Of a DNA stretch of 64,000 nucleotides, positions 9,726-26,590 are shown piece by piece. How positions within the stretch are numbered: position 1 is the stretch's first letter; the number at the start of each line of letters is the position of its first letter. The DNA is from Niameybacter massiliensis (GTDB lineage: Bacteria > Bacillota > Clostridia > Lachnospirales > Cellulosilyticaceae), in NCBI RefSeq assembly GCF_001282685.1, contig NZ_LN875035.1, positions 447,001-511,000 on the forward strand, written 5' to 3'. Made by a program: the position numbers and the translations under genes. The notes beneath the pieces are model-generated. The model ran no database searches. It was given only the letters and a program-made list of their open reading frames with translations, and was not told where the DNA came from.

Positions 9726-9731
9726 CCCTTT

Positions 9732-10418: not shown

Positions 10419-10689
10419 CCTCATTCCTCCTAAATTCATCATCTTCTATGAACTTAATATCTTCTCTATATACATGAATGAATGTAGGATCATCTTCTGT
10501 AAACCCAGCTTCTTTGATAAAACCTATTACTTTAACTATTTTCGAATTGGCATATCCTTCGCAAAAATGTAACTCTGCAAGATGTATATTAGGGAACTGC
10601 CTTACTTCATCAATACTATATAGTTCTGTCACTTCTCCTGCTCTAGCAAGTGAAAATGTTTCATTAATAACCTTTACTCTTCTAGGCAT
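10408..10689 (-). CDS. Hypothetical early phage protein
   Basis: A 93-residue protein with AAGGTGGTG upstream of the ATG. It begins basic (MPRRVKVINETF) and ends acidic, with predicted mixed alpha/beta structure. It is co-translated between RecT and the MBL hydrolase and overlaps the latter by about 10 bases. No family recognised. Confidence 0.5.
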   Translation of the reverse strand: MPRRVKVINETFSLARAGEVTELYSIDEVRQFPNIHLAELHFCEGYANSKIVKVIGFIKEAGFTEDDPTFIHVYREDIKFIEDDEFRRNEDEA

Positions 10690-10702
10690 TTAGAACACCA
10701 CC

Positions 10703-11563
10703 TTAAATAGGACATACTATTTCTTCTTGAGTTGGTGCAGTTACTTGCGCTGGTACTTCTTGCTTATCTTCAACAAATGGTACATCTACAAATTCCTTAC
10801 TTGCAGTCATTTCCTTTTGTTCTGCTTGTGGTGTAGGTGTAGATTCTTCATCTGCACCTTGATATGTATCAATTAGATCTCCATCATCACTGGAGTTAAT
10901 AAGTGTTTTACAAACCCTTGTGATAATAGTTTTTTTACACATTTCATCCGTAAAGTTTGTGTGTGCTCCTGACTTTCCTTTTGCATAGCCTTGATTCCAT
11001 GATTTCTGGATTTGGTCGTAACTCATATATACAAGGTCACCTCTTGTACCATCTTTAAAGATTGGAATAGCAAATGCACCTGTAATTTTTGACAAATTAA
11101 CATTAAGTGGATTTGGTTTGTAGGTCTTAAGCTGCATGGTGAGATCATCAATATTGAATTCCATTTCAAATTCATCACCTTCATAGATAACAAAAGCCTT
11201 TACCTCTTCAAGACCTGAAACTCTTTTAGCAATAGCCAGCTTGCCGAAGTATGAAGTCATAAGCTGAAGCTTTCCTCCGAATGCTACAAAGTAGCATTGT
11301 TTTTTGCTTGGCTCTAGTCCCATCTTAACCATGTCTAAAAGAGAGTTGGCAATACTTTCTTTGGTACAACTTTCAAGCACTGGTTTCTTCGCATTATCTA
11401 CTGTTTCAGCTAAAATTAATGCAGCACTTTGAAGTGCATTTCCTGCTACATAGTTTTGTGGTAATACTAATGACTTGTTCTCTTGAAGCTTGTTTACCTT
11501 TGCTAATACACTATCTGTAATTTCCTTTTGTGGTTTTACTGCTACTTGGTTATCTGACATCAT
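10703..11563 (-). CDS. recT: RecT-family single-strand annealing protein
   Basis: A 286-residue protein with the RecT core: LDMVKMGLEPSKKQCYFVAF, YFGKLAIAKR, KSWNQGYAKGKSG and TNFTDEMCKKTIITR, then a low-complexity acidic/proline tail from about residue 230. RecT binds single-stranded ends and anneals them to complementary DNA in phage recombination. The neighbours (MBL hydrolase, SbcC-like ATPase, RecU) form a recombination module. AAGGAGG precedes a double ATG; the first was kept. Confidence 0.9.
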   Translation of the reverse strand: MMSDNQVAVKPQKEITDSVLAKVNKLQENKSLVLPQNYVAGNALQSAALILAETVDNAKKPVLESCTKESIANSLLDMVKMGLEPSKKQCYFVAFGGKLQLMTSYFGKLAIAKRVSGLEEVKAFVIYEGDEFEMEFNIDDLTMQLKTYKPNPLNVNLSKITGAFAIPIFKDGTRGDLVYMSYDQIQKSWNQGYAKGKSGAHTNFTDEMCKKTIITRVCKTLINSSDDGDLIDTYQGADEESTPTPQAEQKEMTASKEFVDVPFVEDKQEVPAQVTAPTQEEIVCPI

Positions 11564-11583
11564 TTGTTCCTCCTTGGTTTTAA

Positions 11584-11811
11584 TTAATTTAATGGCATTT
11601 GAAATACTTCATCATCTTTTGTTTTGTTTTGAATAAAGTTTGCTATAATAGCCATAACTTCTTTTGCTCTTTCCTTTGTTCCGTAATCCCCTAGATGCAC
11701 ATAATCTTTTCCATAATTATTTACTATTCTTCCGCTCTCCCAAGCCTTTACTGTCTTGCATAATGTTAATGTTGTTCCATCTTGACTTCTAATCCAAATA
11801 CCCTTCATCAT
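11584..11811 (-). CDS. Hypothetical small phage protein
   Basis: A 75-residue protein, probably a small beta-barrel-like fold (GIWIRSQDGTTLTLCKTVKAW) followed by a helix (KERAKEVMAIIANFI). Its start overlaps the stop of the Cys-rich gene upstream (ATGA-type), so the two are coupled. Function unknown. Confidence 0.5.
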   Translation of the reverse strand: MMKGIWIRSQDGTTLTLCKTVKAWESGRIVNNYGKDYVHLGDYGTKERAKEVMAIIANFIQNKTKDDEVFQMPLN

Positions 11812-11969
11812 TTAGTTCCCTCGCTTTTCTTTTTGAATTTACATGTCCAACAATCATTACAAGTTGCACACTTTTTCTCTTTTCCATAATGGCTACACAT
11901 AGCGCATGCTTTTGAACCATTGCATAAATGATTTTCTTTATCCCAGTTACCACATGTATCACGCTTCAT
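11808..11969 (-). CDS. Cysteine-rich mini-protein
   Basis: A 53-residue protein whose ATG overlaps the SbcC-like gene stop as TAATG, with GAGGAT upstream. Eight cysteines lie at residues 6, 16, 22, 25, 34, 37, 40 and 43, mostly as CxxC pairs, plus His residues, so it should fold around one or two zinc ions. The tail is basic. Too short for a 60-residue ORF cut-off but well placed in the operon. Function unknown. Confidence 0.6.
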   Translation of the reverse strand: MKRDTCGNWDKENHLCNGSKACAMCSHYGKEKKCATCNDCWTCKFKKKSEGTK

Positions 11970-13864
11970 TATTCAATCCTCAACTCCTTATCAACTGCAC
12001 TCACAATAAGGTCGATTACTTGACTTTGAGTTGCTGGAATGTCTGTTACAGATTCTCTATTATCAATGAATATAGGCGCATTCATTCCATAGTGTTCACT
12101 TAGAACATTTATAATCTCTATACCAGCTTGAACTTGGGCTGCATTATTTGCATTGCTGAAAGGAACTCCATTAATAAGTGATTCACAGCACTCTGCAAGT
12201 CCACCGTTTATTTGTTGATCAAATAGCTTAAAGCTTACGTTTTTAAACTTGCTATTGATATTAGCTTCTAGCATTTCTACTTTAGCCTTTGTAAAGTCCT
12301 CTATCATGATTTCTACTTGTTCTACATCTGCAAGCTTGCATTGTAAATCCTTAAGTTGCTCCTGAAGCTCTTTTATTCTTGCAAGCGCTTTAGCATTGGA
12401 ATCATGCTTAGATACTCTTAATTTGATATTTTGAATATTAATCTCTTCCATTTTGATAGCTTGCTTAATGGCTTCATTGTCTACGCTTTCAAATGCTTGT
12501 ACCTCTTTTTTGAGAACATCTATTTGATTATCTATTTCAGACGTATCACATGGTGTAGTATCTATTGGCTTCTCAAGTATCTTTTCAACCTCATTAATAT
12601 TTGATTGAATACTTACTAATTGGCATGCAATCTCTTCAAATCTAGTAGTTAAATTCTGCATGTTCTGCTGTGTATTTAGTAAATCTGCTTTAATTATGTT
12701 TGCTTCATTAAGCAAACGTTCTTGTCTTATAGCTTTCTCTTCTATGTATTTGCTTTTAAGCTTTTCAACTTCTTCACTAGGTAGATCCTGTCCACAAGTA
12801 GGACAAATAGCTTTATGCTCATCAAAAGTTTCTTCTTCTATTTTCATCCATTCATTACGTCTGTCTGCTACTTTTGAAGTAAGGATAACTTCATCTTGTT
12901 TTAATGCTTCAATTTTCTTGACAATACTATCTTGCTCATATGTATGATTAGATAACTCACGTTTTAAAGTTTCTAACCTGTCCTTATTTTGGTTGTATTC
13001 TGCATATGTAGATTTATTATGCGCTCTTATAATCTCTTCTTTTGTGCGCTCTAAACTTAGTATTTGATGTTGTTTTGTACGTATCTCATTAAACTGTGCA
13101 TCTGTAGCTTCTAATTGTTTTTCTAACTCTGCTTTATATGCTTCTTTTTCATCTATTTTTGCCTGGAGAACTTCTAACGGTTCAAGCCCTTCTTCTAGGC
13201 TTCTAGTTTGCTCATCAATTCTTGGTGGAATGTTCTCAATATCTGACTTAAGCTTCTTCTTAGTAGCTGCTAAAGACTTCTTGTATTCATCTGCACTTTT
13301 ACCTGCTAATGTTTCTTGAAGTTTTTCATAACCCTCTATTTGGTTATCAGCAATATTGCCACATACTTCAAATAGGAACTTTCTTTTGTCTTGCCACTTC
13401 ATTGCTTCAAAAGCTAATGGATTGGTTAAAAGCTTAAATGTCTTTTCATTAATAATTTCATTAACGTACTCTTGATACTCACTCTTTTTGCAAGGAACCC
13501 CATCTATATAGTAGATAGTCTCATGACCACTAAACTCCTGTTCTGCTTGTCCACGCTTCTTAACCCACTTTTCTCTAAACAACTTTCCTAGTGTGAATGT
13601 CTTGCCATTCAATACAAAGTCAGCTGTAACTTCTGTATTAAGAAAATGAATAGGCTCATTGTGTTCTGTGAGTGGTTTAATCTCGAAGTCCTTACGCTCC
13701 TGGCTATCTTTGTCATATAATAACCAACTAAACGCATCTGCTATTGTTGTTTTCCCTGTTCCATTTGCTCCATATATCCTAGTTTCTGTTGTGTCGAAAA
13801 AAATTCTTCTTTCTTTAATTCCCTTGAAATTCTTCAACTCTAGTACTTTTAATAAAAGTTTCAT
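11969..13864 (-). CDS. SbcC/Rad50-like ATPase
   Basis: A 631-residue protein with an N-terminal ABC-type ATPase half (Walker A GANGTGKT, 32-39), a long central coiled coil broken by a CPTCGQ zinc hook near residue 355, and a C-terminal half ending near APIFIDNRES, where the Walker B aspartate is expected. This is the SMC/SbcC plan, but shorter than host SbcC (about 1000 residues). No SbcD-type nuclease lies beside it. It probably tethers or processes DNA ends for the phage recombination module. AGGAGG lies 10 bases before the ATG. Confidence 0.8.
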   Translation of the reverse strand: MKLLLKVLELKNFKGIKERRIFFDTTETRIYGANGTGKTTIADAFSWLLYDKDSQERKDFEIKPLTEHNEPIHFLNTEVTADFVLNGKTFTLGKLFREKWVKKRGQAEQEFSGHETIYYIDGVPCKKSEYQEYVNEIINEKTFKLLTNPLAFEAMKWQDKRKFLFEVCGNIADNQIEGYEKLQETLAGKSADEYKKSLAATKKKLKSDIENIPPRIDEQTRSLEEGLEPLEVLQAKIDEKEAYKAELEKQLEATDAQFNEIRTKQHQILSLERTKEEIIRAHNKSTYAEYNQNKDRLETLKRELSNHTYEQDSIVKKIEALKQDEVILTSKVADRRNEWMKIEEETFDEHKAICPTCGQDLPSEEVEKLKSKYIEEKAIRQERLLNEANIIKADLLNTQQNMQNLTTRFEEIACQLVSIQSNINEVEKILEKPIDTTPCDTSEIDNQIDVLKKEVQAFESVDNEAIKQAIKMEEINIQNIKLRVSKHDSNAKALARIKELQEQLKDLQCKLADVEQVEIMIEDFTKAKVEMLEANINSKFKNVSFKLFDQQINGGLAECCESLINGVPFSNANNAAQVQAGIEIINVLSEHYGMNAPIFIDNRESVTDIPATQSQVIDLIVSAVDKELRIE

Positions 13865-13909
13865 CTTACAAATACCTCCTAATTGGTATATAATCTAACT
13901 GATAAATTT

Positions 13910-14290
13910 TTATTTATCTGCACCAGTATGCTTGCCGGCGGCTGGTGCATTTTTAATTGTATCTAATGCTCTTTGGTAAACTGCTGCTTCATGAATAAGT
14001 TCTTGTACTGCGAATAATACATATTCAACTATTATTTCAAGTTGATGATTGATATCTGCTATAGGCTTATTCATCTTAATCATTTCCCAAAGTTCTACTT
14101 TATGAATGTGCAACCAATCAAGTTGTTCAAATGCTTCTTCATGTTCTTCTAATGCAAGTCCCCACATTTCATGATGATTGTGCATGTCACCCCATTTCTC
14201 TGTGTTAAACTCAGTTTGTTCTTGCTTAAGCTGCTTGATCATATCAAGTATGTATTGGTCTTTTTCTTCTTTTGACATTATCTTAATCAT
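13910..14290 (-). CDS. MazG-like helical phage protein
   Basis: The ATG at 14290 follows AAAGGAG by eight bases, giving 126 residues, almost all helical. The segment WGLALEEHEEAFEQLD recalls the EExxE metal helix of MazG-type NTP pyrophosphohydrolases, followed by a second long helix (LEIIVEYVLFAVQEL) where the ExxD would be expected but is not canonical. A role in nucleotide house-cleaning is possible but unsure. Confidence 0.5.
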   Translation of the reverse strand: MIKIMSKEEKDQYILDMIKQLKQEQTEFNTEKWGDMHNHHEMWGLALEEHEEAFEQLDWLHIHKVELWEMIKMNKPIADINHQLEIIVEYVLFAVQELIHEAAVYQRALDTIKNAPAAGKHTGADK

Positions 14291-14396
14291 TGCTATGCTC
14301 CTTTTTCCTTTCCTCATTTCTAGCTATGTATGATGCTCCTACCATTGATGTAATTCCTATCAAGTAACCAAATGAAAATATCAAAATATCTTTCAT
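14283..14396 (-). CDS. Single-TM mini-protein
   Basis: A 37-residue frame with AAAAAGGAGG before its ATG. It has one hydrophobic segment (about residues 3-23) and a charged cytoplasmic-type tail (ARNEERKKEHS). Its stop overlaps the next start by eight bases. Too short for ordinary gene calling; the ribosome site and spacing make it likely real. Confidence 0.5.
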   Translation of the reverse strand: MKDILIFSFGYLIGITSMVGASYIARNEERKKEHSND

Positions 14397-14408
14397 AAGT
14401 CCTCCTTT

Positions 14409-14570
14409 TTAGTTAGAAGCTATGTACATTGAAATGCCAAAGATACCAAGTGTTATAAATGATGAGATTATATATTGTGTAAAATTAAGTAAGTCACATT
14501 CTAATCCGCCTGCAAGGCCCAAAAGCATTACAAATGATAATACCGAAATGGTACCCATTAGCTTTTTCAA
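14409..14570 (-). CDS. Two-TM mini-protein, TTG start
   Basis: A 53-residue frame from TTG, preceded by GAGGTGAGAG. Two hydrophobic segments (about 6-24 and 31-50) flank a short acidic loop. The stop lies 13 bases before the next start, whose ribosome site overlaps it. Function unknown. Confidence 0.5.
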   Translation of the reverse strand: MKKLMGTISVLSFVMLLGLAGGLECDLLNFTQYIISSFITLGIFGISMYIASN

Positions 14571-14624
14571 TTAACTCTCACCTCATTTTTAATTGCTTGT
14601 CCAATTTCATCGCTGTAGATGAAG

Positions 14625-14789
14625 TTAATCATCTACTTCTTGTTTAACATCAATATCTTTAATTGGATTTACAAACTCGTATCCTATCTTATGTACTGCA
14701 TTAATAAGCATTTTTGTAAGCATTATCTTCTGTTCTTCTTTCGAATATGAATCTAAATCCTTTCCGTTAACTGTATAAATTACTTTCAT
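14625..14789 (-). CDS. Small hypothetical phage protein
   Basis: The ATG at 14789 follows GAGGTGATTG and yields 54 residues starting MKVIYTVNGKDLDSYSKEEQ. Mixed alpha/beta, acidic C-terminus. No family. It lies between the Rha-type regulator and the membrane mini-proteins. Confidence 0.45.
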   Translation of the reverse strand: MKVIYTVNGKDLDSYSKEEQKIMLTKMLINAVHKIGYEFVNPIKDIDVKQEVDD

Positions 14790-14863
14790 ACAATCACCTC
14801 TATTTATATCTATGTTTGTATAAAATTGTCCTATTAGCACTTTTACAATTTATTTGTATTATG

Positions 14864-15586
14864 CTATGCTCCTTTCTTCTCAAATAAACTTGTCTGTTCA
14901 TAAGGTCTTTCCATCTTCAATATCCTTATACTCTCATCAATAATATCCATAGAATTTCTAAGCGTTTCTATGTCTATATCCTCCCACTTTCTAGCACCTA
15001 ACCTAATAAGTACACGTTCTTTAACCAGTTCGTATTCTTCATCAGCTTTGGCAATTCCTAAACGTTTCTTTATGTAATGGCTGATACTTGATTTATCTGC
15101 ACATGATGGCTTGTAGTATTCAGAGCATTTCCTTTCTACTTGCTTGATAGCAATTCCTAATTGCTCGTCTACTAAGCCCATGATTTGCCCTTTGAACTCG
15201 GCTAGGGCTTTGTTTATATCTAGTGAATGAACAACTTGTTCCATCTCATTAAAGCGTTTTACGTACTTAGCTGTAAAAATTATTCCTTTTTCTCCTGTAA
15301 ATTTATTTGCTAGAAAGTCACAACCTAATCTAGTGCAGTCATAGCATTTTCTTGGTTTACCTTGTGCGTCTATATATGTACTTTCTATGAAATAATCAGC
15401 CAACGGAAAATTCCGCTCGCTAAGAACCGGTATAATCCCCTTCGTTTTCACTGTTCCATCTGTTTTATTTGTCCCTTCTAACTTTTGTAAAATATCTGAA
15501 TGTCTAACTTCCATCATCTCAGCAACTTCTACTGTAGTAATTGCTGCTGGCTTTTCTTGTTTCTTACATAATGCATTCTTTGGCAT
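14864..15586 (-). CDS. Rha-type phage regulator/antirepressor
   Basis: A 240-residue protein. The N-terminal ~110 residues match the Rha (pRha) domain: a helix-turn-helix-like VAEMMEVRHSDILQKLE, an aromatic sheet with GKPRKCYDCTRLGCDFLANK, and FTAKYVKRFNEME. The C-terminal part (about 120-240) is helical and charged and may be a second DNA- or protein-binding region. Rha proteins sit next to the repressor switch and affect the lysis-lysogeny choice. It is the second gene of the leftward operon, four bases after the Cro-like gene. Confidence 0.75.
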   Translation of the reverse strand: MPKNALCKKQEKPAAITTVEVAEMMEVRHSDILQKLEGTNKTDGTVKTKGIIPVLSERNFPLADYFIESTYIDAQGKPRKCYDCTRLGCDFLANKFTGEKGIIFTAKYVKRFNEMEQVVHSLDINKALAEFKGQIMGLVDEQLGIAIKQVERKCSEYYKPSCADKSSISHYIKKRLGIAKADEEYELVKERVLIRLGARKWEDIDIETLRNSMDIIDESIRILKMERPYEQTSLFEKKGA

Positions 15587-15589
15587 ATG

Positions 15590-15835
15590 TCATGCTCCTT
15601 TCAGTATTTGTTCTTCTTTCTGAACTTTTTCATTAAAAAAATATGATGGTATCTCTTCTTTTCTTAACCCTAAGACTTCTACTGAACGATTTATCTCATT
15701 TTGTGAAAATTCTAGTTTATTATTTAGTCTGTGGCTAAGTGAGACCCTTCCTATGCCTATCTTTTTAGCAAAATTATCTTGTGTTCCGCAAACTTCCTTA
15801 ATTCTGCCTAGAAGCTTATTATAATCAAAACTCAT
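15590..15835 (-). CDS. Cro-like HTH repressor
   Basis: From the ATG at 15835 it has 81 residues with an XRE-type helix-turn-helix (NFAKKIGIGRVSLSHRLNNK). It is the first gene of the leftward early operon, divergent from the CI-like gene, with the operator region between. This is the Cro position: it should shut off the CI gene during lytic growth. A GTG three codons upstream is too close to the ribosome site. Confidence 0.7.
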   Translation of the reverse strand: MSFDYNKLLGRIKEVCGTQDNFAKKIGIGRVSLSHRLNNKLEFSQNEINRSVEVLGLRKEEIPSYFFNEKVQKEEQILKGA

Positions 15836-15862
15836 TTTTCTCACTTCCTCTCTTTTTCATTT

Positions 15863-15979
15863 GTTCGTGTTTCTGAACTAACTAAATCATAAATCATGAA
15901 TTTTTAACTGTCAATATATTTTTTCGTGTTTCTGAACTTTTTTTATTATTATTGGTGCATAATGTTGTCTTTTCTGAAC
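15863..15979. promoter_or_regulatory. Repressor operators of the left prophage
   Basis: Three related sites: GTTCGTGTTTCTGAAC at 15863-15878, TTCGTGTTTCTGAAC at 15923-15937 and TTTCTGAAC at 15971-15979, with a TCAGAA half-site at 15993. One lies at the leftward start site, one just upstream of its -35, one inside the spacer of the rightward promoter. They are the likely binding sites of the CI-like and Cro-like proteins. Confidence 0.65.
15886..15914 (-). promoter_or_regulatory. Leftward early promoter
   Basis: On the minus strand TTGACA, 17-base spacer, TATGAT, a near-consensus sigma-A promoter driving the early operon. It is flanked by two repressor sites. Confidence 0.8.
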
Positions 15980-15993
15980 ACATATGATATTAT
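15965..15993 (+). promoter_or_regulatory. Rightward repressor promoter
   Basis: TTGTCT, 17-base spacer, TATTAT, ending 35 bases before the CI-like gene. The TTTCTGAAC operator occupies the start of the spacer, so the repressor can control its own gene. Confidence 0.7.
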
Positions 15994-16027
15994 CAGAATA
16001 GATTAACAAAAAAGGAGCCTTTATATC

Positions 16028-16480
16028 ATGAAGAAAACTATATCAGAAAGAATAAGAGAAGGTTTAGCAATAAGAGGCATGAAACAAGCTGATTTAGTTA
16101 ATAAAACCGGAATTGGTAAATCCTCTATCAGTACTTATATTTCAGGTTCTTATGAACCTAAACAAACTAATATCTATAAAATTGCTAAGGCATTAGATGT
16201 TAATGAGGCATGGCTTATGGGGCATGATGTTAAAATGGATAGAGATACCTCAGCCCAAGAACTTAATTTAACTGCAGCCGAACAGGAACATCTTAAGAGA
16301 TATAGAACACTGGATGAAAAAGGACAACATACGGTAGATACCGTACTATATATGGAGTATAACCGTTGTACCAATGACTATTTAATGCCAATAGCGGCAC
16401 ATAATGATAATATTAACGATGAACAATTAGAGAAAATAAATAGAGATATAGAAAACATTTTACTTAAGAAAAAAAGATAA
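16028..16480 (+). CDS. CI-like HTH repressor
   Basis: A 150-residue protein with an N-terminal XRE helix-turn-helix (about residues 18-40, MKQADLVNKTGIGKSSISTY) and a helical C-terminal half, without a LexA-type Ser-Lys peptidase domain. AAAGGAG lies upstream. It heads the lysogeny cluster and is followed by an ImmA-like gene, so derepression probably works through the ImmA partner rather than by RecA-driven self-cleavage. Confidence 0.75.
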   Translation: MKKTISERIREGLAIRGMKQADLVNKTGIGKSSISTYISGSYEPKQTNIYKIAKALDVNEAWLMGHDVKMDRDTSAQELNLTAAEQEHLKRYRTLDEKGQHTVDTVLYMEYNRCTNDYLMPIAAHNDNINDEQLEKINRDIENILLKKKR

Positions 16481-16506
16481 TTTTATAATTTTTAAAGGTG
16501 ATTTGC

Positions 16507-17022
16507 TTGAATGAATATGAAATTTTATTGCACAAAAGTTCTAAAGAAGGACTTGAAGTATTTGAAATGGCTTTGGAATCAGATTCTGATGCATTATGTG
16601 TTGGTGATACATTAGCCTTAAATACAAGACTATTAAGTACAGTACCCGAAAAAAGATGTACTTTAAGTGAGGAAGTCTGGCATAGCAAAACAACTGTTGG
16701 AAATATAATTGATACTCGTGACATTAATAATCTAAAACAAGAATGTTTTGCACGAAAGTGTTCTTTTGAAGATTTAATTCCGCTTGATAACATTGTGCAA
16801 GCATTACTTAATCACTGCTTAAATTTACAAGATGTATGTGAGTACCTGTGTGTAACAGAAAAGTACTTCTGTGAAGCAATTGCTTACTATAAGCAAAAAT
16901 ATGGTCCATATTATAGATGTAAAGAATACACATTACATTTTGAACCTTTGTCAGTTATAGGTTCATCAAAAGGAGATGGTTTAAATGACAGCAGCTCTTT
17001 ATATTCGAGTAAGTACAGATGA
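16507..17022 (+). CDS. ImmA-like anti-repressor protein
   Basis: The TTG at 16507 (AAAGGTGAT upstream) starts LNEYEILLHKSSKEGLEVFEM, the usual beginning of phage ImmA-like proteins, giving 171 residues. The metallopeptidase helix reads LSEEVWHSKTTVGNI: the second His is kept but the first is Glu, a variant common in this phage subgroup. The C-terminal part (NLQDVCEYLCVTEKYFCEAIAYYKQKYG) is also typical. ImmA proteins cleave the phage repressor. Its 3' end overlaps the recombinase gene by 38 bases. Confidence 0.7.
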   Translation: MNEYEILLHKSSKEGLEVFEMALESDSDALCVGDTLALNTRLLSTVPEKRCTLSEEVWHSKTTVGNIIDTRDINNLKQECFARKCSFEDLIPLDNIVQALLNHCLNLQDVCEYLCVTEKYFCEAIAYYKQKYGPYYRCKEYTLHFEPLSVIGSSKGDGLNDSSSLYSSKYR

Positions 17023-18445
17023 TCAGCTAGAGTTCTCTCCTGATGCTCAAAAAAGAGCATTACTTGAATACGCTAAAAAGAATAATATATTAGTAGATGA
17101 ACAATATATTTTTGTTGATGAAGGTATTAGTGGCACAAGTGCTAAGAAAAGACCTGCCTTCCAAACTATGATTGCTACAGCGAAGAAAAAGCCTAAACCA
17201 TTTGATACTATTTTAGTTCATAAATTCGATCGTTTTGCACGTTCTAGGGAAGACTCTGTAGTATATAAAAGTCTTCTTCGTAAAGAATGCGACATAAAAG
17301 TTATATCTATAACAGAACAAATGGAAGATGATAAATTCAGTGTTATTCTAGAGGCTATGCTTGAAGCTATGGCAGAATACTACTCTCTTAACTTAAGTGA
17401 TGAGGTTATGAAAGGAATGACTGAAAAAGCACGTAGAGGGTTACCACAGTCAGAAGCACCATATGGATATAGGCGCGATGGAGATAAATATGTTTTAGTA
17501 GATGATGAAGCTGAAATTGTAAAAATGATATTCTCAAAATTTAATAGTGGTGAACTTGGATACGGGGAAATTTGCAGGTTTTTACTTCTAAATGGAATTA
17601 CAAATAGAAAGGGTCAATCATTTACTGTTAGTGGAATAAAATATATGCTAGAAAATCCAATTTATTGTGGTAAAGTTCGCTGGAACTACTCTACTCATAA
17701 AGGTGGGCGTAGGAAAAATCCCAAAGAAGAATGGATCATAACCGATGGTGAGCATCAACGTATTATTAGCGATGAACTATACCAAAGTGTTCAACAAAAG
17801 ATTGCTTCATTAAAAAAGGCTCCTGGACACTATACTCCTAATAAAGAAATTAAGCACTGGTTAAGTGGGCTCTTAAGATGTTCAAATTGCAACAAGGTAT
17901 TAGTGTATAATAAAGGTTATCATAAGTACCCCTTTTATAGATGTAACGGATATAATAAAGGCGTATGCACTACCAGCAATATGGGGCCATTACATTTTTA
18001 TGAAAAAGAAGTTTTGAAAGCATTATCTCTTAAATTTAATGAGCTTAGCCAAGGACTAGGCAACATAGATTCAGTAGTTGTAAAAACAAATAAAGAAACA
18101 TCCAATAAAATTCTTCTTCAAAAACAGTTAGAAAAGGTTAGAAGAAAATATGAAATTGCTAAAAAGGCTTATTTGGCTGAAATTGATACTTTAGAAGAAT
18201 ATGCAAACAATAAATCAGATATTGAAAAAGAAGAAAGAGATCTATTAGATAAACTTTCTAAAGAAATTAGTTCTGAGGATGTATCAAAAATTATAACTTC
18301 TAAGTTAGAACATGCCATCCAAATATTAAATGATGATTCAAAAAGTAATACTGAAAAAAATACATTTTTAAAGAGCTTTATAAATAGTATAGATGTAGAT
18401 AGAAACAATGATATACTAAAGATAAATATGTACGTAGAGTGCTAA
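16985..18445 (+). CDS. Large serine recombinase (left prophage integrase)
   Basis: A 486-residue protein. The resolvase domain begins ALYIRVSTDDQ with catalytic Ser10, followed by FDRFARS (Arg83, Arg86). Then come the recombinase domain (about 150-270), a zinc ribbon (C299, C302, C320, C328) and a coiled coil (about 365-440), the standard large serine integrase plan. It cuts and joins attP and attB and, with a directionality factor, excises the prophage. Its stop lies inside a terminator that ends a few bases from dpaA coding sequence, so it almost certainly targets dpaA. No separate directionality factor is evident nearby. Confidence 0.95.
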   Translation: MTAALYIRVSTDDQLEFSPDAQKRALLEYAKKNNILVDEQYIFVDEGISGTSAKKRPAFQTMIATAKKKPKPFDTILVHKFDRFARSREDSVVYKSLLRKECDIKVISITEQMEDDKFSVILEAMLEAMAEYYSLNLSDEVMKGMTEKARRGLPQSEAPYGYRRDGDKYVLVDDEAEIVKMIFSKFNSGELGYGEICRFLLLNGITNRKGQSFTVSGIKYMLENPIYCGKVRWNYSTHKGGRRKNPKEEWIITDGEHQRIISDELYQSVQQKIASLKKAPGHYTPNKEIKHWLSGLLRCSNCNKVLVYNKGYHKYPFYRCNGYNKGVCTTSNMGPLHFYEKEVLKALSLKFNELSQGLGNIDSVVVKTNKETSNKILLQKQLEKVRRKYEIAKKAYLAEIDTLEEYANNKSDIEKEERDLLDKLSKEISSEDVSKIITSKLEHAIQILNDDSKSNTEKNTFLKSFINSIDVDRNNDILKINMYVEC

Positions 18446-18464
18446 TCATAAGCACTCTTTTTAT
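18437..18464 (+). terminator. Recombinase terminator at the prophage edge
   Basis: GAGTGCT and AGCACTC pair around a seven-base loop, followed by TTTTTATTT. The recombinase stop codon lies within the left arm and loop. Confidence 0.85.
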
Positions 18465-18470
18465 TTGTGT

Positions 18471-18578
18471 ACCTTTAATACTCCAAGGTTACCTGGAAAA
18501 GTTGCCCCTATGACAGCAGCAGCAATCCTCTATCAAGGTCTTACTCTCATCATGCGCGAACAGGGGGAACAAATATGA
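18471..18578 (+). pseudogene. dpaA: dpaA (spoVFA) 3' fragment at the attachment junction
   Basis: Reading in the frame that ends at TGA 18576-18578 gives NTPRLPGKVAPMTAAAIL and a short helical end. LPGKVAP-TA is the C-terminal signature of dipicolinate synthase subunit A. Upstream codons (before about 18477) no longer make sense, so the rest of dpaA has been displaced by the left prophage. Subunit A is the dehydrogenase-like partner that makes dipicolinate from the lysine-pathway intermediate in the mother cell. The stop overlaps the dpaB start (ATGA), the normal operon arrangement. Intact dpaA would be restored by exact excision. Confidence 0.85.
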
Positions 18579-18937
18579 CAGATTTGAAAAATTTAAAATT
18601 AGGTGTTGCACTTTGCGGCTCCTTTTGTACGTTTAAGAAAGCAATGGTTATGCTTCAAAATTTAGTTGACTTAGGTGTTGATGTCTATCCAATTATGTCT
18701 TTCAATGCGTACTCTATTTCTACACGTTTTGGAAGTGCCACTGACTTTATAGATCAAGTTGAAACGATTACTGGAAAACCAATCATTCATTCTATTCATG
18801 ATGCAGAACCTTTAGGACCAAAAAGTATGATTGATGCACTTCTCATTGCACCTTGCACAGGTAATACACTTTCTAAAATTGACCATGCAATTGTTGATAC
18901 ACCTGTTGTTTTAGCTGCAAATGCAACCATGATATGA
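18575..18937 (+). pseudogene. dpaB: dpaB (spoVFB) 5' fragment at the second junction
   Basis: A 120-residue N-terminal part of dipicolinate synthase subunit B, a flavoprotein-like partner of DpaA. Its landmarks are LGVALCGSFCTFKKAM, STRFGSATDFIDQVETITGK, AEPLGPK, LLIAPCTGNTLSK and DTPVVLAANATM. The family normally has about 195-200 residues; here the frame ends two codons past ANATM at TGA, where the right prophage begins. The missing ~75 residues, which include the usual PVVLAVSTND stretch, should lie beyond the right end of that prophage. GGGGGAAC-type ribosome site precedes the ATG. Confidence 0.92.
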
Positions 18938-19380
18938 ATATGGGTTTCTATAAGTACACTTTATCAAATACTTGGCATGAGTTAAAAGCAATTAAAACTC
19001 TTGGTGATTGTATTAGATTTAATAGACTAAAAGCAAAATTAACTCAGGCTGAGCTTGCGAATAAGATTGGGTTAGATAAAAATACAATCTACTTACTAGA
19101 AAAAAATAAAGCTCTACTACACGTAAAATTTATTTTAAAAATTGAAGAAATCCTATCCTGCTCTTTAGTTGGATTTGATGAGTATTATGATTTTGCACGA
19201 GATACTTCTACATATATCATAAATATTAGAAATAAATTAGGATTAAAACGTAAAGGCTTTAGTAAATTGATAGGAGTACATAGTAGTACTTTATTAAAAT
19301 GGGAAACAGGTAAGTCATATATAACAAGAATGCATATGAACAAATTAAGCTTTTTTTTCCTTGATAATAATATTTCTTAA
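18934..19380 (+). CDS. Double-HTH protein coupled to truncated dpaB
   Basis: A 148-residue protein with two XRE-like helix-turn-helix units: one near residues 35-57 (LTQAELANKIGLDKNTIYLL) and a second near 105-128 (FSKLIGVHSSTLLKWETGKS). There is no ribosome site of its own: the ATG overlaps the TGA of the dpaB fragment (ATGA), so it should be translated only by coupling on the dpaAB message. That message is made in the mother cell late in sporulation. This suits a protein needed then, such as a recombination directionality factor. A start at the third codon's ATG is possible. Function is inference. Confidence 0.6.
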   Translation: MNMGFYKYTLSNTWHELKAIKTLGDCIRFNRLKAKLTQAELANKIGLDKNTIYLLEKNKALLHVKFILKIEEILSCSLVGFDEYYDFARDTSTYIINIRNKLGLKRKGFSKLIGVHSSTLLKWETGKSYITRMHMNKLSFFFLDNNIS

Positions 19381-19405
19381 TTAACATAGCTAATCTATAA
19401 ACTAT

Positions 19406-19501
19406 TTATATGTTCAAGGCAATTGCAAGGATGATAGTGATTACTAATAACGTCCCAAAATAGCTAGTAATTAGTACTCTTCTTAAATTAAATTTTTCCA
19501 T
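19406..19501 (-). CDS. Possible single-TM mini-protein
   Basis: A 31-residue frame with a basic N-terminus (MEKFNLRR) and one long hydrophobic segment (about residues 9-30). AAGGAG lies 13 bases upstream, inside the arm of a hairpin, so translation is uncertain. Confidence 0.3.
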   Translation of the reverse strand: MEKFNLRRVLITSYFGTLLVITIILAIALNI

Positions 19502-19510
19502 AAAAATAGA

Positions 19511-19546
19511 CCACACTCCTTATTTTTCTAGAGTGTGGCCTTTTAT
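19511..19546. terminator. Terminator after the double-HTH gene
   Basis: CCACACTC and GAGTGTGG pair around a 12-base loop, followed by CCTTTTATTT on the plus strand; an A/T-rich tract on the other side makes it usable in both directions. Confidence 0.7.
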
Positions 19547-19579
19547 TTATATTTTTATACTATAAAAATATATTCTAAT

Positions 19580-20685
19580 CTAATAGCATACTTTGCAAGC
19601 CTCGTATCCTTGTTTTTTAGCATCATCAACTGTTAGTTCTCTGCTTGTTGTATTAATATATCTACAAGCTTTATAATGATATTTTTTACCTGTTCCAGTT
19701 ACCCAAACCTTTTGGCCTGTTGATTGTATAGTAGTTGACTCTATAATTGTATTAGTAGGATTTGTTGATATCTGTACATTATTTATAGTATTCGATATAG
19801 TATCAACTTTAGTTACTATAGGTGTCTGCATCACTTTACCGTCTACTTTTTGTGTAGATATAGTAAGTATTTTCTCATCACTAGTAATAATAATATTGCC
19901 ATTTAAATCAGTTCTATATGTTTTAATGTCTTTAAGTCTGTCGCTTACTTCTTTATGCGGGTGGCCATACTTATTGTCCTTTCCACAAGTAATAACAGCT
20001 ATTTCAGGTTTTACTTTATCCAAAAACTCTTTACTTGTTGAAGTATTACTTCCGTGATGCCCTACTTTAAGTACATCTATATCTATCATTTTATCTAAGA
20101 TAGATTTTTCTACATCTTTGCCAGCCAGCATCTCCTGTAAATAAAAATTCATGCTCATCGTTTTTATAAAGCATTATTAAACTTCTATCATTTACATCTT
20201 TAGATTGACTTTTTGTATTATAAAATTGGAATGTACCATTACCTAAAGTAACTATTTTATCTTCTAATGGTACACTTGGTTTTAAATTTTTATTAGTAGC
20301 AGCTTGAACACAATCTTTATAAGTTTTTGTATCAGCACTACCATTTCCAATTAACACTATGCCAATTTCGAAGTTCTTGATTACTGCATCTAATGCCCCA
20401 CAATGGTCTGCATCTGGATGAGTTAATACTATGTAATCTAATTTTTTTACCTCTTGCATCTTAAGGTATTCTACAAGAGACTTTTCATCATCATTTTCTG
20501 CTCCATCTATAAGCATATTTTTACCGTTGTCTTTAATAAGAATTGAATCACTGTTTCCAGTATCAATAAAAATGTACTTCAACCGATTGTATAATTTGAA
20601 TTTGCTGGACATTTTTTGCAAATAATGTATTGGTAATTAGTAATAATGACATAATAAATATCAAAAATTTACTAGATCTCTTCAC
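19580..20685 (-). pseudogene. Secreted ComEC-like MBL hydrolase, two frameshifts
   Basis: A GTG at 20685 (GGAGGG upstream) starts a signal peptide (KRSSKFLIFIMSLLLITNTLFA). The frame breaks at a five-base A/T run (20568-20572), where HFIDTG is expected; one extra base explains it. The MBL core follows (LIDGAENDD, LTHPDADHCG, FLFTGDAG), then a second break at a duplicated GCCA/CCAG unit (20120-20129), and the frame resumes as GKDVEKSIL, VGHHGSNTS and a C-terminal metal-binding-like CRYINTTSRELT...CKVCY tail. Intact, it would be an exported hydrolase like the ComEC catalytic domain. Both lesions are slippage-type. Sequencing error cannot be excluded. Confidence 0.8.
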
Positions 20686-20791
20686 TTTTATCCCTCCATT
20701 TTCTGCTATACTATTTCACAAAGTAATATATTTAATACTTTTAATCTTAAAATAACATTGTCCATAAATATATATTTTTAGTCATATCGTT

Positions 20792-21601
20792 TTATACACT
20801 TAATTCTTTTTCTTTCTGATATATTAAATCTAATAATCTATTCTTTATCTCATCTTTATTATGTGCATAATGAGATCTAGCATGACAATTTGCACATATT
20901 GCCGCTACTGATACTGGGTGATCAGGTCCATTATCGGATAATCTAGTAATATGATGAACTTCTAAATACATATCACCATTTTTTTTTACAAATCCTCTTT
21001 CTCCGCACAATTCACATACTCCCTGTGAGCGCCTCATAGCATACTCCCTAATCGCCTTACTCCTTTTCCTTACATTTATTTTTATTTCCTCACTAGACGC
21101 TCCCTCAACAGCTTGCTCCATAGCCTTTTTTCTCAATTCTTCTAATGATTGATTTAGATTACTTTCTGCTAAATCATTAAAATCACAGCCTACATCTATA
21201 TTATCAATGGGATTTAATTCAAACACTATTGAATTTCTCTCTCTATTGTTTTTATCTATGGCTTGTATTATCTCGTAACCCAGGCACATAAATTCGCCAA
21301 TATATTTAACATATGCTGATTTTACATATTGAAACAGAAATATAGATTTATTATTTTTCAAGTGATCTCTTACTGCTTTATTTCCTCTTATAAATTGCAT
21401 ATGCCCTATCTGGCCTTCTCCTGTATACTTAAAGGTTCCATATTTAGTCCAACTATCTGCATATCCAAATTCATCTCCTGACTCACCTGTAAATATAAAT
21501 ATACAAGGAAAGTTTGTAGGTGTACTTATTCCACCTTGTCCTTGACCTCCATATTCCATATGAATATTTTTACGCTTATAAACTTCATTTCTAATAAACA
21601 T
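20792..21601 (-). CDS. McrA-like HNH endonuclease
   Basis: A 269-residue protein. The N-terminal ~115 residues (YGGQGQGGISTP, FIFTGESGDEFGY, YTGEGQIGHM, IRGNKAVRDH) match a DNA-recognition module seen in McrA/SRA-type enzymes that cut modified DNA. A helical linker follows, then a zinc HNH nuclease: C196-C199, H216-H217, N224, C236 and C239-H240. Such type IV enzymes attack invading DNA carrying base or backbone modification. It lies with cargo genes past the lysis cassette, transcribed with AAGGAGGGAG upstream. A prophage-borne defence role is likely; the modification recognised is unknown. Confidence 0.75.
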   Translation of the reverse strand: MFIRNEVYKRKNIHMEYGGQGQGGISTPTNFPCIFIFTGESGDEFGYADSWTKYGTFKYTGEGQIGHMQFIRGNKAVRDHLKNNKSIFLFQYVKSAYVKYIGEFMCLGYEIIQAIDKNNRERNSIVFELNPIDNIDVGCDFNDLAESNLNQSLEELRKKAMEQAVEGASSEEIKINVRKRSKAIREYAMRRSQGVCELCGERGFVKKNGDMYLEVHHITRLSDNGPDHPVSVAAICANCHARSHYAHNKDEIKNRLLDLIYQKEKELSV

Positions 21602-21725
21602 AACCTCTCCCTCCTTTATCTGACTATACTATATCATAAAATTTATTAGTATATTTAACTATTTCCTATAGTATTCCTCTTTACATGAAAAAGCTAGAAC
21701 CATAGTCCTAGCTAAAATAATAACT

Positions 21726-24680
21726 CTATTTATACAATATACTTGATTTAGTAACCTTTATGTCTGAATCACAATAATTTAAATATGTTGCTATTTCTTC
21801 TACATTACTTACTTTAGGCCCAAGTATTACTTCTTCTAAATCTATGTCTTTATTAATTTCTATAAATAAATGAGGCACCCTCCATGTAGAAATTTTATCT
21901 GTTTGCACATTATTACTCCCAAATCTTATAAGTCTTATTTCTTTCTCATATTTATATTGAGCATATTTATACAGAAATCTTACTTGATCTAATATATTGC
22001 ATATTATTTTTCTCATTGTTATATCTCTTACTTTATCTATACCTAAATCATTTAATATAATACAAATTTCTTCAAAGATTTTTTCATCTATATTCATAAA
22101 ATCTTCTTCTATATAACTTACTTTGTATAAACAATTTGTTATTTTATTATTTTCTTTTAGCAAAATATCCTCATCTTCTTTTAAATTCTCTTCTACCCTA
22201 TGATATGTAAGACTGTGTTTTTCCTCATTATCAAAAAAAGTATTCTTAAATAGTAAACAACACCCTTCTCCATTCTCACTATACGTTGTCCACATAGGTA
22301 AATTATCTTCAGACTCTGAAAAACTTGTTATATACGTTTGACTATAGTTATTTAATATTTTTCTTCCATTTTTTGTACTATCTTCATTATACAAAATATC
22401 TATAATATCTTTTATAGACTTATACTGATTATTATTTTTACATAGTAATTCTTTATCTATATGACTTAATATATTTTTAAAGACTTCGCCCTCCATTGGA
22501 TCATTCATATAGACCGAATTGTTTAACCTTAATCGTGGCTTACTTTGTTTATCTAAGTCATTTACTCCTTTATTAGGTTTAATTAAAAAGTTAATCGTAT
22601 TCATCTTAGTATAATGACAAATTTTTGAGTCTTGATTTACTATTTTAATTCTTGATTTTTTCAGTTCACTAACCTTAATAAATAATTTTATAATTTGTAT
22701 GTATGTATTCTCATCCTTTAATGTGTTCTTTAGATATTCTAAGAAAGATCTATTGTCTTTCTCTAACATTAACAAATTTAATTGATCCTTAATATATTCT
22801 TTTGAGTCTATTGGAAACAATTTCATTCTCTCAGTGTAGTAGCCCTTATTATAAGGATTTAATTTAATTGCATTTTCATAATCTGCCAAAGCTTTTTCTA
22901 GATTTTCTAGCCTCCTATATACCTCTGCTCTCTCTTTAAATGCAAGGCTATTTTGGGGATCTAGCTCTATTGCTCTTGTATAATTTTTTAATGCTTCTTC
23001 ATTTTCATCCCATAGACCATATATATATCCTCTGCTATAATATGCATTACTGCTATTAGGCTCTAATTCTACTATTTTATCCGCATCTTCTAATGATTTT
23101 AACTTATCATTTAGTTTATTATATAATATTGCTCTATTACTATAGTATATAGACGTATCAGGTTTTAATTCAATTGCTTTTGTATAATCTGCTAACGCTT
23201 GTTCTAGTCTCTTGGTTATGCTATATAATATTCCTCTACGATTGTAGTACAATGCATTAGTAGGTTTCAATTCAATTGCTTTTGTATAATCTGCTATAGC
23301 CTTTTCTTCTTCCTTAAGATCTCTATATAGTACTCCTCTACGGTTGTAGTACAGTGGATTATCAGGTTTCAATTCAATTGCTTTTGTATAATCCTCTACT
23401 GCCTTCTCTTGTTCATTAAGTTCTCTATATAGCAGCCCTCTACTACTGTAGTACTGTGAATTATTAGGTTTCAATTCAATTGCTTTTGTATAATCCTCTA
23501 CTGCCTTCTCTTGTTCATTAAGTTCTCTATATAGCAGCCCTCTACTACTGTAGTACTGTGGATTATCAGGTTTCAATTCAATTGCTTTTGTATAATCCTC
23601 TACTGCCTTCTCTTGTTCATTGAGTTCTCTATATAGCGCCCCTCTAAACTTATAGTACTGTGCATTACCAGGTCTCAATTCAATTATTTTTGTATAATCT
23701 GCTAATGCCTTCTCTTGTTCATTGAGTTCTTTATATAGGGATCCTCTAAACTTATAGTACAATACATTTTTAGGCTCTAATTCAATTGATTTTGTATAAT
23801 CTGCTAATGCCTTCTCTTGTTCATTGAGTTTTCTATATAGCGCCCCTCTAAGTTTATAGTACAATGCTTTATTAGGATCTAATTCAATTGCTTTTGTATA
23901 ATCTGCTAATGCCTTTTCTTCTTCTTGTGACTCTCTATATATCATTCCTCTAACCTTATAATACAATGCATTAGTCGGATCTAATTCAATTGCCTTTGTA
24001 TAATCCGCTACTGCCTTCTCTACTTGTGACTCTTTATATATTAATCCTCTATAAGCGTAGTACTGTGCATTAGTCGGATCTAATTCAATTGCTTTTGTAT
24101 AATCTGCTAATGCCTTTTCTTCTTGTGACTCTTTATATATTAATCCTCTATAAGCGTAGTACTGTGCATTAGTCGGATCTAATTCAATTGCTTTTGTATA
24201 ATCTGCTAATGCCTTTTCTTCTTCTTGTGACTCTTTATATATTAATCCTCTATAAGCGTAGTAGTGTGTATTAGTCGGATCTAATTCAATTGCTTTTGTA
24301 TAATCTGCTAATGCCTTTTCTAATTTTTCTTCTTCTTGTGACTCTTTATATAGCATTCCTCTATAAGCGTAGTACTGTGTATTAGTCGGATCTAATTCAA
24401 TTGCTTTTGTATAATCTGCTAATGCCTTTTCTAATTTTTCTTCTTGTGACTCTTTATATAGCATTCCTCTATAAGCGTAGTACTGTGCATTAGTCGGATC
24501 TAATTCAATTGCTTTTGTATAATCTACTAACGCCTTTTCTTCTTCTTCCAACTCTCTATATAGTCTAGCTCTACTATTATATGCGCTGGCATCCTTTCTA
24601 TCTAACTCTATTTTTCTTGTATAAATTTCTATCTCTCTCTTAATACTATCAGTAGTTTCTTCCTGCATTTGTGCTTTCAT
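21726..24680 (-). CDS. Giant TPR protein with DUF2971-like C-terminus
   Basis: A 984-residue protein. Residues ~16-630 are about 18 tetratricopeptide repeats of the form ALADYTKAIELDPTN-YYAYRG-YKES. The C-terminal ~300 residues (CHYTKMNTINFLI, SVYMNDPMEGEVF, SFSESEDNLPMWTTYS, GEGCCLLF, YKYEKEIRLIRF, LGPKVSN) match the DUF2971 pattern, whose proteins often sit in defence islands; their biochemistry is unknown to me. Units 2-7 are nearly identical in DNA and some are 33, 36 or 37 rather than 34 residues. Probably a sensor-effector protein in lysogens. Confidence 0.75.
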   Translation of the reverse strand: MKAQMQEETTDSIKREIEIYTRKIELDRKDASAYNSRARLYRELEEEEKALVDYTKAIELDPTNAQYYAYRGMLYKESQEEKLEKALADYTKAIELDPTNTQYYAYRGMLYKESQEEEKLEKALADYTKAIELDPTNTHYYAYRGLIYKESQEEEKALADYTKAIELDPTNAQYYAYRGLIYKESQEEKALADYTKAIELDPTNAQYYAYRGLIYKESQVEKAVADYTKAIELDPTNALYYKVRGMIYRESQEEEKALADYTKAIELDPNKALYYKLRGALYRKLNEQEKALADYTKSIELEPKNVLYYKFRGSLYKELNEQEKALADYTKIIELRPGNAQYYKFRGALYRELNEQEKAVEDYTKAIELKPDNPQYYSSRGLLYRELNEQEKAVEDYTKAIELKPNNSQYYSSRGLLYRELNEQEKAVEDYTKAIELKPDNPLYYNRRGVLYRDLKEEEKAIADYTKAIELKPTNALYYNRRGILYSITKRLEQALADYTKAIELKPDTSIYYSNRAILYNKLNDKLKSLEDADKIVELEPNSSNAYYSRGYIYGLWDENEEALKNYTRAIELDPQNSLAFKERAEVYRRLENLEKALADYENAIKLNPYNKGYYTERMKLFPIDSKEYIKDQLNLLMLEKDNRSFLEYLKNTLKDENTYIQIIKLFIKVSELKKSRIKIVNQDSKICHYTKMNTINFLIKPNKGVNDLDKQSKPRLRLNNSVYMNDPMEGEVFKNILSHIDKELLCKNNNQYKSIKDIIDILYNEDSTKNGRKILNNYSQTYITSFSESEDNLPMWTTYSENGEGCCLLFKNTFFDNEEKHSLTYHRVEENLKEDEDILLKENNKITNCLYKVSYIEEDFMNIDEKIFEEICIILNDLGIDKVRDITMRKIICNILDQVRFLYKYAQYKYEKEIRLIRFGSNNVQTDKISTWRVPHLFIEINKDIDLEEVILGPKVSNVEEIATYLNYCDSDIKVTKSSILYK
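23913..24533. repeat. Near-identical tandem TPR-coding repeats
   Basis: Six consecutive units of 99-111 bp coding for TPR units 2-7 are almost identical and differ mainly by whole-codon changes in the Glu/Lys linker. This is a likely site of copy-number change by recombination or slippage. Confidence 0.8.
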
Positions 24681-24853
24681 CCTAAATCCTCTTTATTATT
24701 TTATTATCAATAATATTATATATATAATTACACGATAGTTCAAGATTTAACAATATCTCTTCCAAGTATCTATGATTATTTAGATAATATATTTACAACA
24801 ATCATTGTATACACCTTTATATGTATAAGAATATCTATTGGCTAGTATATTTT

Positions 24854-26086
24854 CTATCTTATGCCATTTTTTAATTGTTGTATTTTTCTTGCACAGTTAA
24901 TTATCAATTTAGGTACATTATTAGGTTTTATTTTATCTTTATCTTTCCATACGCTTAATGTATTTACTACACCTTCTTGATTTAGTACTTTAAGTGCTTC
25001 TTGATATTCATCTTTAGCTTGAACTTTAGTCTCTTCAACTTCTTTCATCATTCTAAGCAAATCATGTCCATATGTAGCACTTGGACACCAGTTGCCACCT
25101 AATGCTTCTACTGTTGGCGCTTCACCTTTAAGATAACTAAAGTGCCTTGGATCAAGTGTGTTTGACTTAGGATATCCATTAACACCCGCATAAAGTGCTA
25201 GATGATCTATATGTGCCTTAATACCATCTTCCCATGTATCAAAACGTTTGTGTGCTTCTGCAATGGTGCAATCATCTTTACCTGATGCAGTTTCTTTTAA
25301 TCCACATGGATTTCTGTAGGTTTCATCTAACACGCCTCCAAACTTACCATAGCCTGTTTCCTTGGTATACTGAACAATAGCTACTACTGGATTAATGCCT
25401 ACTTTAAGACATTCTTTAAAGTAAATAGATAGATTATCAATAAAAATCTGTTTTGGCTTCTTAACAATTGCCCACTCTTGACACTGTTCTAATGTTGCTG
25501 TAGCTGGACCAATAATAGGTGTGCCTCCTACGTTGCTAGTGCCTAACACTTTTAAGATTCCTTCTCCTATACCTCTACCCATTAACTTACGTTCTTCAGA
25601 TGTATCAATAATTTCAACATCCTTTGAATCAATAAAAGCACACTCCACAATAACAGCTGGCATACTTGTTTGCCTAATCACTCCAAAATAATCATGTCCC
25701 GCATCATTTACTTTTGTATATATTTCTTTAGGACGCTTATTTTGGCCAGTAACTTGATTAATTGAGTCAACTATCTCTTGTGCCATCTTTAAACTTGTAC
25801 CACCAGTTACACTATAAATAACTTCTACGCCATCACCCCCTCCTGCATTGGTATGTATAGAGATAAAAAGAGCTGCTTTATGCTTGTTAGCAAATGCAAC
25901 TCTTTCATTAATACTTACAGTTTTATCTGTGTCTCTAGTTTGCAATACTTGAATTCCTTTAGACTCTAGATACTCTTTGCAAAACTTGCTAATACTAGAT
26001 ACTAAATCTTTTTCTTTTAGTCCGTTAGCACATGCTCCTGGATCAGAACCTCCATGCCCTGGGTCTAATACAACTAATCTACTCAT
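24854..26086 (-). CDS. Bifunctional endolysin: amidase plus glucosaminidase
   Basis: A 410-residue lysin. Residues 1-185 are an Amidase_3 zinc N-acetylmuramoyl-L-alanine amidase with ligands H11, E25, H78 and catalytic E148. Residues ~205-350 look like a glucosaminidase domain (VAIVQYTKETGYGKFGG, NPCGLKETASG, FDTWEDGIKAHIDHLALYAG). The C-terminal ~50 residues resemble a small cell-wall-binding or linker repeat. It has no signal peptide, so it needs the holin encoded just upstream, with which it overlaps by eight bases. It cuts both peptide and glycan bonds of peptidoglycan at lysis. Confidence 0.9.
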   Translation of the reverse strand: MSRLVVLDPGHGGSDPGACANGLKEKDLVSSISKFCKEYLESKGIQVLQTRDTDKTVSINERVAFANKHKAALFISIHTNAGGGDGVEVIYSVTGGTSLKMAQEIVDSINQVTGQNKRPKEIYTKVNDAGHDYFGVIRQTSMPAVIVECAFIDSKDVEIIDTSEERKLMGRGIGEGILKVLGTSNVGGTPIIGPATATLEQCQEWAIVKKPKQIFIDNLSIYFKECLKVGINPVVAIVQYTKETGYGKFGGVLDETYRNPCGLKETASGKDDCTIAEAHKRFDTWEDGIKAHIDHLALYAGVNGYPKSNTLDPRHFSYLKGEAPTVEALGGNWCPSATYGHDLLRMMKEVEETKVQAKDEYQEALKVLNQEGVVNTLSVWKDKDKIKPNNVPKLIINCARKIQQLKNGIR

Positions 26087-26555: not shown

Positions 26556-26590
26556 ATTTCCTCCTTAGTACAATACTCTATTTTTAAAAA

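Follow-up and report, generated by a model that had tools for sequence, protein, structure and literature searches.

In Niameybacter massiliensis (genome G000), which carries spore-formation genes, both dpaA and dpaB, encoding the two subunits of dipicolinate synthase, were cut, each by a separate prophage. The two split dpa genes noticed in the first-pass annotation were confirmed, as was its statement that each subunit gene is split by its own element, while its interpretation was upheld in part; exact excision of each element would restore a full frame. The genome comparisons suggest, with a probability of roughly two in three, that two unrelated temperate phages integrated in dpaA and dpaB and that both are excised exactly in the sporulating mother cell, restoring dipicolinate synthase.

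Two prophages in the dpa operon

The window, i.e. the whole stretch of 64,000 nt analysed, corresponds to positions 447001-511000 of contig NZ_LN875035.1 (designated C11, 3.39 Mb); the genome comprises 4.57 Mb in 11 contigs and is 98% complete, with a reported contamination of 3.52%. The element in dpaA was designated A and that in dpaB was designated B; their features are given below in window coordinates unless preceded by C11.

C11:417098-417880, same strand as the halves in the window: dpaA 5' part, about 48 kb to the left, found by profile search of the contigs
C11:417881 to 465489, no strand assigned (right part, window 1..18488): element A, a 47,608-bp tailed prophage, delimited by the dpaA 5' half at its left end, the core and structural genes
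16985..18445, + strand: integrase A, large serine recombinase of 486 aa (above the Pfam cut-offs for Resolvase, Recombinase and Zn_ribbon_recom; PF07508 search)
18464..18488, + strand: left arm of attP A, with 18/25 symmetry to the right arm at C11:417883-417907
18489..18498, + strand: attR core of A, TTACCTGGAA, with the identical 10 bp at C11:417881
18489..18578, + strand: dpaA 3' end, last 30 codons including the stop; 290 aa with no stop when rejoined with C11:417098-417880
18575..18919, + strand: dpaB 5' end, first 115 codons; 195 aa when rejoined with C11:511834-512076
18917..18921, + strand: attL core of B, GCAAA, repeated at C11:511831-511835; crossover of highest symmetry, 23/25
18922..18946, + strand: right arm of attP B
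C11:465920 to 511834, no strand assigned (left part, window 18920..64000; end at window-equivalent 64834): element B, a 45,914-bp tailed prophage, delimited by structural genes and core
18934..19380, + strand: first gene of B, a helix-turn-helix regulator (PHROG regulator matches)
48446..49084, - strand: sigma-70 family factor in B (PHROG 351, E 3.2e-28; Pfam Sigma70_r2 over cut-off)
59860..60066, - strand: 68-aa protein, weak candidate recombination directionality factor of B
63138..64000, on to window-equivalent 64796, + strand: integrase B, a 552-aa large serine recombinase (PF07508 match)
C11:511834-512076, same strand as the halves in the window: dpaB 3' part, about 46 kb to the right, found by profile search of the contigs

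The outer gene parts, which had been expected to the left and right of the window, were both present on the same contig and strand, the search of the genome itself giving a dpaA-model match at C11:417110-417895 and a dpaB-model match at C11:511816-512067. Both elements lie inside the coding sequence of sporulation genes, with the two halves of each gene present and in order, and each encodes a serine recombinase of its own close to an att site, as in gene-intervening elements. A second intact dpaAB copy, named beforehand as evidence against the first-pass reading, was looked for and none was found in the 98%-complete genome; other matches were weak (best E 0.0023 with the dpaA model and 1.1e-5 with the dpaB model), and the DpaB half used as query returned itself and one match at E 0.02, nothing else.

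The host DNA separating A and B amounts to 418 bp, or about 430 bp including the cores (window 18489-18921); the short host stretch of the first-pass annotation was therefore real, but smaller than the ~460 bases given there. The overlap of the dpaA end with the dpaB start by ATGA also held, whereas the 120 dpaB codons assigned to the host had to be reduced to 115, the next five, up to the stop at 18935-18937, being phage sequence. The ATG of B's first gene overlaps the TGA closing this truncated frame (ATGA, 18934-18937). Two different serine-recombinase prophages were correctly recognised, one at each broken end, but integrase B is not at dpaB: integrase A stops 43 bp short of the attR core of A, and it is the left end of B, not its integrase, that adjoins dpaB because integrase B sits at the far end of the element.

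Genes for terminase, portal, major head protein, tail sheath, tape measure, baseplate and endolysin were matched in both elements, together with RecT and an SbcC-like protein in A and the sigma-70 factor in B; the set found in A and in B covers terminase, portal, major head protein, tail and lysis, as in tailed temperate phages. Helix-turn-helix regulators were present in both, and an anti-repressor in A. The integrases share 29% identity and only 2.2 kb of DNA could be aligned between A and B, which appear to be unrelated elements, each looking like a complete tailed prophage. Near their left ends A and B hold related genes (C11:418031-419110 and window 19580-20621, respectively) with an alignment of 884 bp at 79%; in B the gene is broken into two ORFs. 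A short tyrosine-integrase-like ORF was seen inside B at window 45928-46488, alongside its serine integrase system. The 68-aa protein of B has a close homologue in the relative G007 and resembles weakly (E 0.008 to 0.012, among 6,613 ORFs) a small ORF that neighbours the integrase in the 4.7-kb elements described below; in one direction of this comparison one unrelated ORF outranked it, and it had no Pfam or PHROG match.

Three large serine recombinases were found in the genome with PF07508, two of them at the dpa operon. The third belongs to a prophage located between genes, at C11:about 2121400-2168000, which aligns with B over 24 kb at 75-99% identity yet carries a different integrase; B therefore seems to belong to a group of phages whose integration module is exchanged. 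Two mismatch-free alignments to the window, of 20,357 and 21,458 bases, were found in the IMG/VR record IMGVR_UViG_2775506840_000002; they lend no independent support because the record probably derives from the same assembly. This record treats the double prophage as a single 91.9-kb virus with the dpa fragment inside.

Predicted excision and the rejoined genes

Excision at the att cores would leave an uninterrupted dpaA of 290 codons with a TTG start and an uninterrupted dpaB of 195 codons, both without stops, the predicted junctions being CCAAGCTTACCTGGAAAAG in dpaA and GCTGCAAAATCTC in dpaB. Symmetry of the attP arms was 18/25 in A and 23/25 in B, and none of 396 random region pairs reached 18 (best 17). 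This att anatomy implies integration and exact excision by serine integrases. Two separate excisions would be needed, as previously suggested, because the integrases are so dissimilar (29% identity) and the cores differ (TTACCTGGAA versus GCAAA). A single joint excision of A and B was considered and rejected, since the 418 bp of host DNA would be taken out with them. The crossover of B was chosen by a scan of all dinucleotide pairs; one at CATG, where attP is palindromic, was discarded, as it leaves six extra residues in DpaB and has a symmetry of 18/25 versus 23/25 for GCAAA.

The rejoined DpaA scored 276.7 bits with PRK08306, over the cut-off of 261, and 204.3 bits with TIGR02853, below the cut-off of 319.65. 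The rejoined DpaB from the GCAAA crossover could be aligned with the first intact relative along 195 columns without a gap. With TIGR02852, a 201-aa version of DpaB containing the six extra residues scored 244.2, over the cut-off of 229, and the dpaB half alone 132.6, under it; the TIGR02852 scores and the DpaB identities of the family search come from this 201-aa query with its six-residue insert. None of the invariant positions was broken in the rejoined proteins, i.e. 0/99 in DpaA (14 DpaA sequences, G021 being left out of the comparison as the motif was not found there) and 0/54 in DpaB (15 DpaB sequences), and intact relatives break 0 to 10 such positions.

Misassembly, or the mixing of two genomes, is scarcely credible as the source of this arrangement: contamination is reported at 3.52% and IMG/VR joins the region in one 91.9-kb record, both of which would be compatible with it, but every piece is ordered, on one strand and on a 3.39-Mb contig, the recovered attP symmetry is far beyond chance, and the double pattern is repeated on one contig in the relative G018.

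Split dpa genes in the Cellulosilyticaceae and the wider order

A search of 24 Cellulosilyticaceae genomes, including G000, showed dpaA or dpaB cut at fixed sites in eight and both genes cut in three (G000, G007 and G018), several of the assemblies being incomplete. The cases other than G000 are as follows.

G018: 46,851 bp in dpaA and 4,742 bp in dpaB, halves of both genes on one contig
G020: about 4.7 kb in dpaB, both halves on one contig
G022: about 23.5 kb in dpaA, both halves on one contig
G016: dpaB cut, halves on two contigs that end just past the site
G003: dpaB 3' half with an integrase, only one half found
G007: dpaA 5' half with an integrase, and dpaB 3' half; only one half of each found
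G017: dpaA 5' half with broken frame, only one half found

Three cut sites were used: LAAK-S in dpaB (six genomes), NA-IPTAE in dpaA (four genomes) and SLPG in dpaA (G000 only). The dpaB cut has a GCAAA-type core in G000, G016 and G018 and lies at the same position in G020; by eye, G007 and G017 have att arms similar to those of G018. In the integrase tree the dpaB integrases of B, G018 and G020 grouped at 86/93, below the tool's star level, with the dpaB integrase of G003 outside the group. Symmetry of attP was weak in dpaB of G018 (16/25, a level reached by 14/396 random pairs), 14/25 and tied with other pairs in dpaB of G020, and absent at the dpaA join of G022, which was set from the reading frame. 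In G018 and G020 both dpaB halves are open, and pN was 0.107 versus pS 0.701 for the rejoined genes. A second dpaB, 45% identical, lies elsewhere in G018 and G020; no dpaA adjoined it in the copies checked, those of G018 and G019. On these comparisons, the dpaA-dpaB operon is a long-standing integration target in Cellulosilyticaceae, a pattern missed by the first-pass annotation. The dpaA prophage of G018 is also present in IMG/VR (IMGVR_UViG_2832721004_000002).

The inserts of about 4.7 kb in dpaB of G018 and G020 (L075:15390-18215; L077:6867-9640) encode AgrB (Pfam over cut-off), a GHKL kinase and one serine recombinase, as well as an AgrD-like peptide, assigned by reading with no Pfam match, and a small ORF divergent from the recombinase. 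Between the two inserts, identities were 51% for AgrC, 63% for AgrD, 60% for AgrB, 26% for the small ORF and 55% for the recombinase. Neither a response regulator gene nor a recognised phage structural gene was seen in these inserts; the dpaB halves of both genomes are open nonetheless.

Two loci showed further changes. In G007 (L084, L083) the locus looks rearranged, with the dpaA-site integrase in inverted orientation next to the dpaA 5' half and, at the dpaB 3' half, an inverted host gene recognised by eye as YceG-like. In G017 (L085), a tandem duplication just ahead of the att site, representing either decay or an assembly error, disrupts the reading frame of the dpaA 5' half. In the family search three Epulopiscium-like genomes (G009, G011 and G012) had dpaB with no dpaA match, in agreement with Epulopiscium type B, which according to an excerpt of PMC8245194 has lost DPA genes and retains one of nine. 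Both the broken dpaA half of G017 and these losses, together with two insertions within one operon, are what would be expected of a dead operon accumulating phages after DPA was no longer needed or sporulation was lost. For N. massiliensis such decay is very unlikely, as the 485 codons of the rejoined genes have neither stop nor frameshift, no invariant residue is lost, and the sporulation genes sigK (one open frame over cut-off) and spoVA (two spoVAC/spoVAEB-type genes over cut-off) are intact.

In a sample of 392 Lachnospirales genomes, dpaB was matched in 178 (156 outside the family) and dpaA in 177 (159 outside the family). No dpaB outside the family looks split, because the best E was 9.5e-60 or better in 156/156, versus 1.4e-38 or weaker for the cut genes, although a split gene beside an intact paralogue would escape this comparison. 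For dpaA, eight of the 159, picked for weak or double matches, were re-examined and five of these were partial matches; two dpaA matches occurred outside the family in G089, G164 and G232 only. In G232 (C14:31001-37000), dpaA is split at the NAIPT motif by a 2.9-kb insert with a 522-aa ORF read as a serine recombinase, which brings at least one dpaA split to a second Lachnospirales family. In G089 and G164 the NAIPTAE site of dpaA is precisely where contigs end, those of G164 overlapping by 14 nt; these ends possibly reflect mixed whole and split copies and would equally fit a plain assembly break.

Proposed excision in sporulation and comparison with known elements

Upstream of the dpaA start is ACAATGCCAAGCTTAAATTCATAGGTTA, a sigma-K-like site. 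Scanning with promoter patterns against reversed sequence revealed no convincing sporulation promoter inside A or B: the sigma-K pattern occurred 9 times in A and 10 times in B versus 12 and 17 in the reversed controls, giving no support to control by sigma-K; a loose sigma-E pattern occurred 25 times in B versus 9 in the reversed control and 23 times in A versus 25.

Growing cells would need neither dpaA nor dpaB. On the favoured reading, each phage integrated by its own large serine integrase into one gene of the operon; during sporulation both would excise exactly in the mother cell, the operon behind the sigma-K-like promoter would then yield both dipicolinate synthase subunits, and the forespore would retain the lysogenic form and transmit it. 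This timing is proposed by analogy with skin, SPbeta, vfbin, gin and yin, which are compared below. If both phages do excise in the mother cell, one spore-resistance enzyme would depend on two independent viruses at once.

Because both look like complete phages, A and B may instead be mere inducible prophages that excise on induction only, so that spores of the lysogen would be DPA-poor or reliant on rare spontaneous excision. The full structural gene sets and helix-turn-helix regulators of both, the anti-repressor of A, the lack of a clear sporulation promoter within either and the 24-kb alignment of B with a prophage located between genes all fit such phages. It is nevertheless a rather unlikely account, since the gene halves are without decay (0/99 and 0/54 invariant positions broken), insertions recur in the presumably mother-cell DPA genes and not at other loci (2/3 serine-recombinase elements here and 8/24 family genomes), and dpaB halves are open in G018 and G020 around 4.7-kb elements with no recognised phage structural gene. 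For excision in the sporulating mother cell, a speculative and unlikely extension is that DPA synthesis forms an ordered two-key lock with A out before B: once A has left, the sigma-K-type promoter before dpaA would read through the 5' part of dpaB into B, and a transcript reaching the regulator in B's first gene would trigger or license excision of B, so that spore maturation would check two phages in turn; in some species the agr element may add a link to cell density. With insertions at fixed sites that range from 4.7-kb elements to 47-kb phages, this one family offers a natural series in which to ask how phages become developmental switches.

The comparisons that follow rest on excerpts of the cited reports. 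Vfbin is a phage-like element in spoVFB (dpaB) of Bacillus weihenstephanensis KBAB4 reported to excise in sporulation (PMC4191935, PMC5595907, PMC6957869, PMC10747680); as described in those excerpts it is like element B in splitting dpaB, but only dpaB is split there, whereas here an unrelated complete phage interrupts dpaA as well, and the host belongs to another bacterial order. In B. subtilis, SPbeta splits spsM, a mother-cell gene restored by exact excision with a serine integrase (PMC4191935), and is, like A and B, an active-type prophage with a serine integrase. Skin, a prophage-like element with a serine recombinase, likewise splits a gene, namely sigK in B. subtilis and C. difficile (PMC5025042, PMC4191935), which is intact here, unlike in the skin hosts. 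As a correction to the first-pass annotation, a pair of developmental elements in a genome is in itself no novelty, B. subtilis 168 already having skin in sigK and SPbeta in spsM according to the excerpt of PMC4191935; its two elements, as described there, target unrelated genes, whereas here A and B, separated by 418 bp of host DNA, hit the two subunit genes of a single enzyme. Yin of Clostridium botulinum, which like B has a small candidate directionality factor, is likewise a prophage in a sporulation gene, there one of the sigma-K type (PMC10747680), differing, as far as the excerpt goes, in its single insertion and its target, yabG.

Singly split sporulation genes, including spoVFB (dpaB), were already known, and what is new is the interruption of both subunit genes within a single operon. 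The literature searched, whose coverage stopped short of subscription papers (among them Abe 2013, reportedly the original vfbin study), contained no report of a split dpaA or of both dpa subunits split by different phages, nor, within the same coverage, of such elements in Cellulosilyticum, Epulopiscium or other Lachnospirales. If excision is developmental, such switches would be placed in Lachnospirales.

A possible link of cell-cell signalling to spore maturation is suggested by the small agr-carrying elements. They are comparable to gin (PMC5595907, in excerpt), which occupies gerE of Bacillus cereus ATCC10987 and has a size of 28.6 kb and three recombinases, in being non-phage elements with a serine recombinase in a sporulation gene; as far as that excerpt describes gin, the dpaB elements of G018 and G020 differ from it in their size of about 4.7 kb, their one recombinase and their agr-type cassette.
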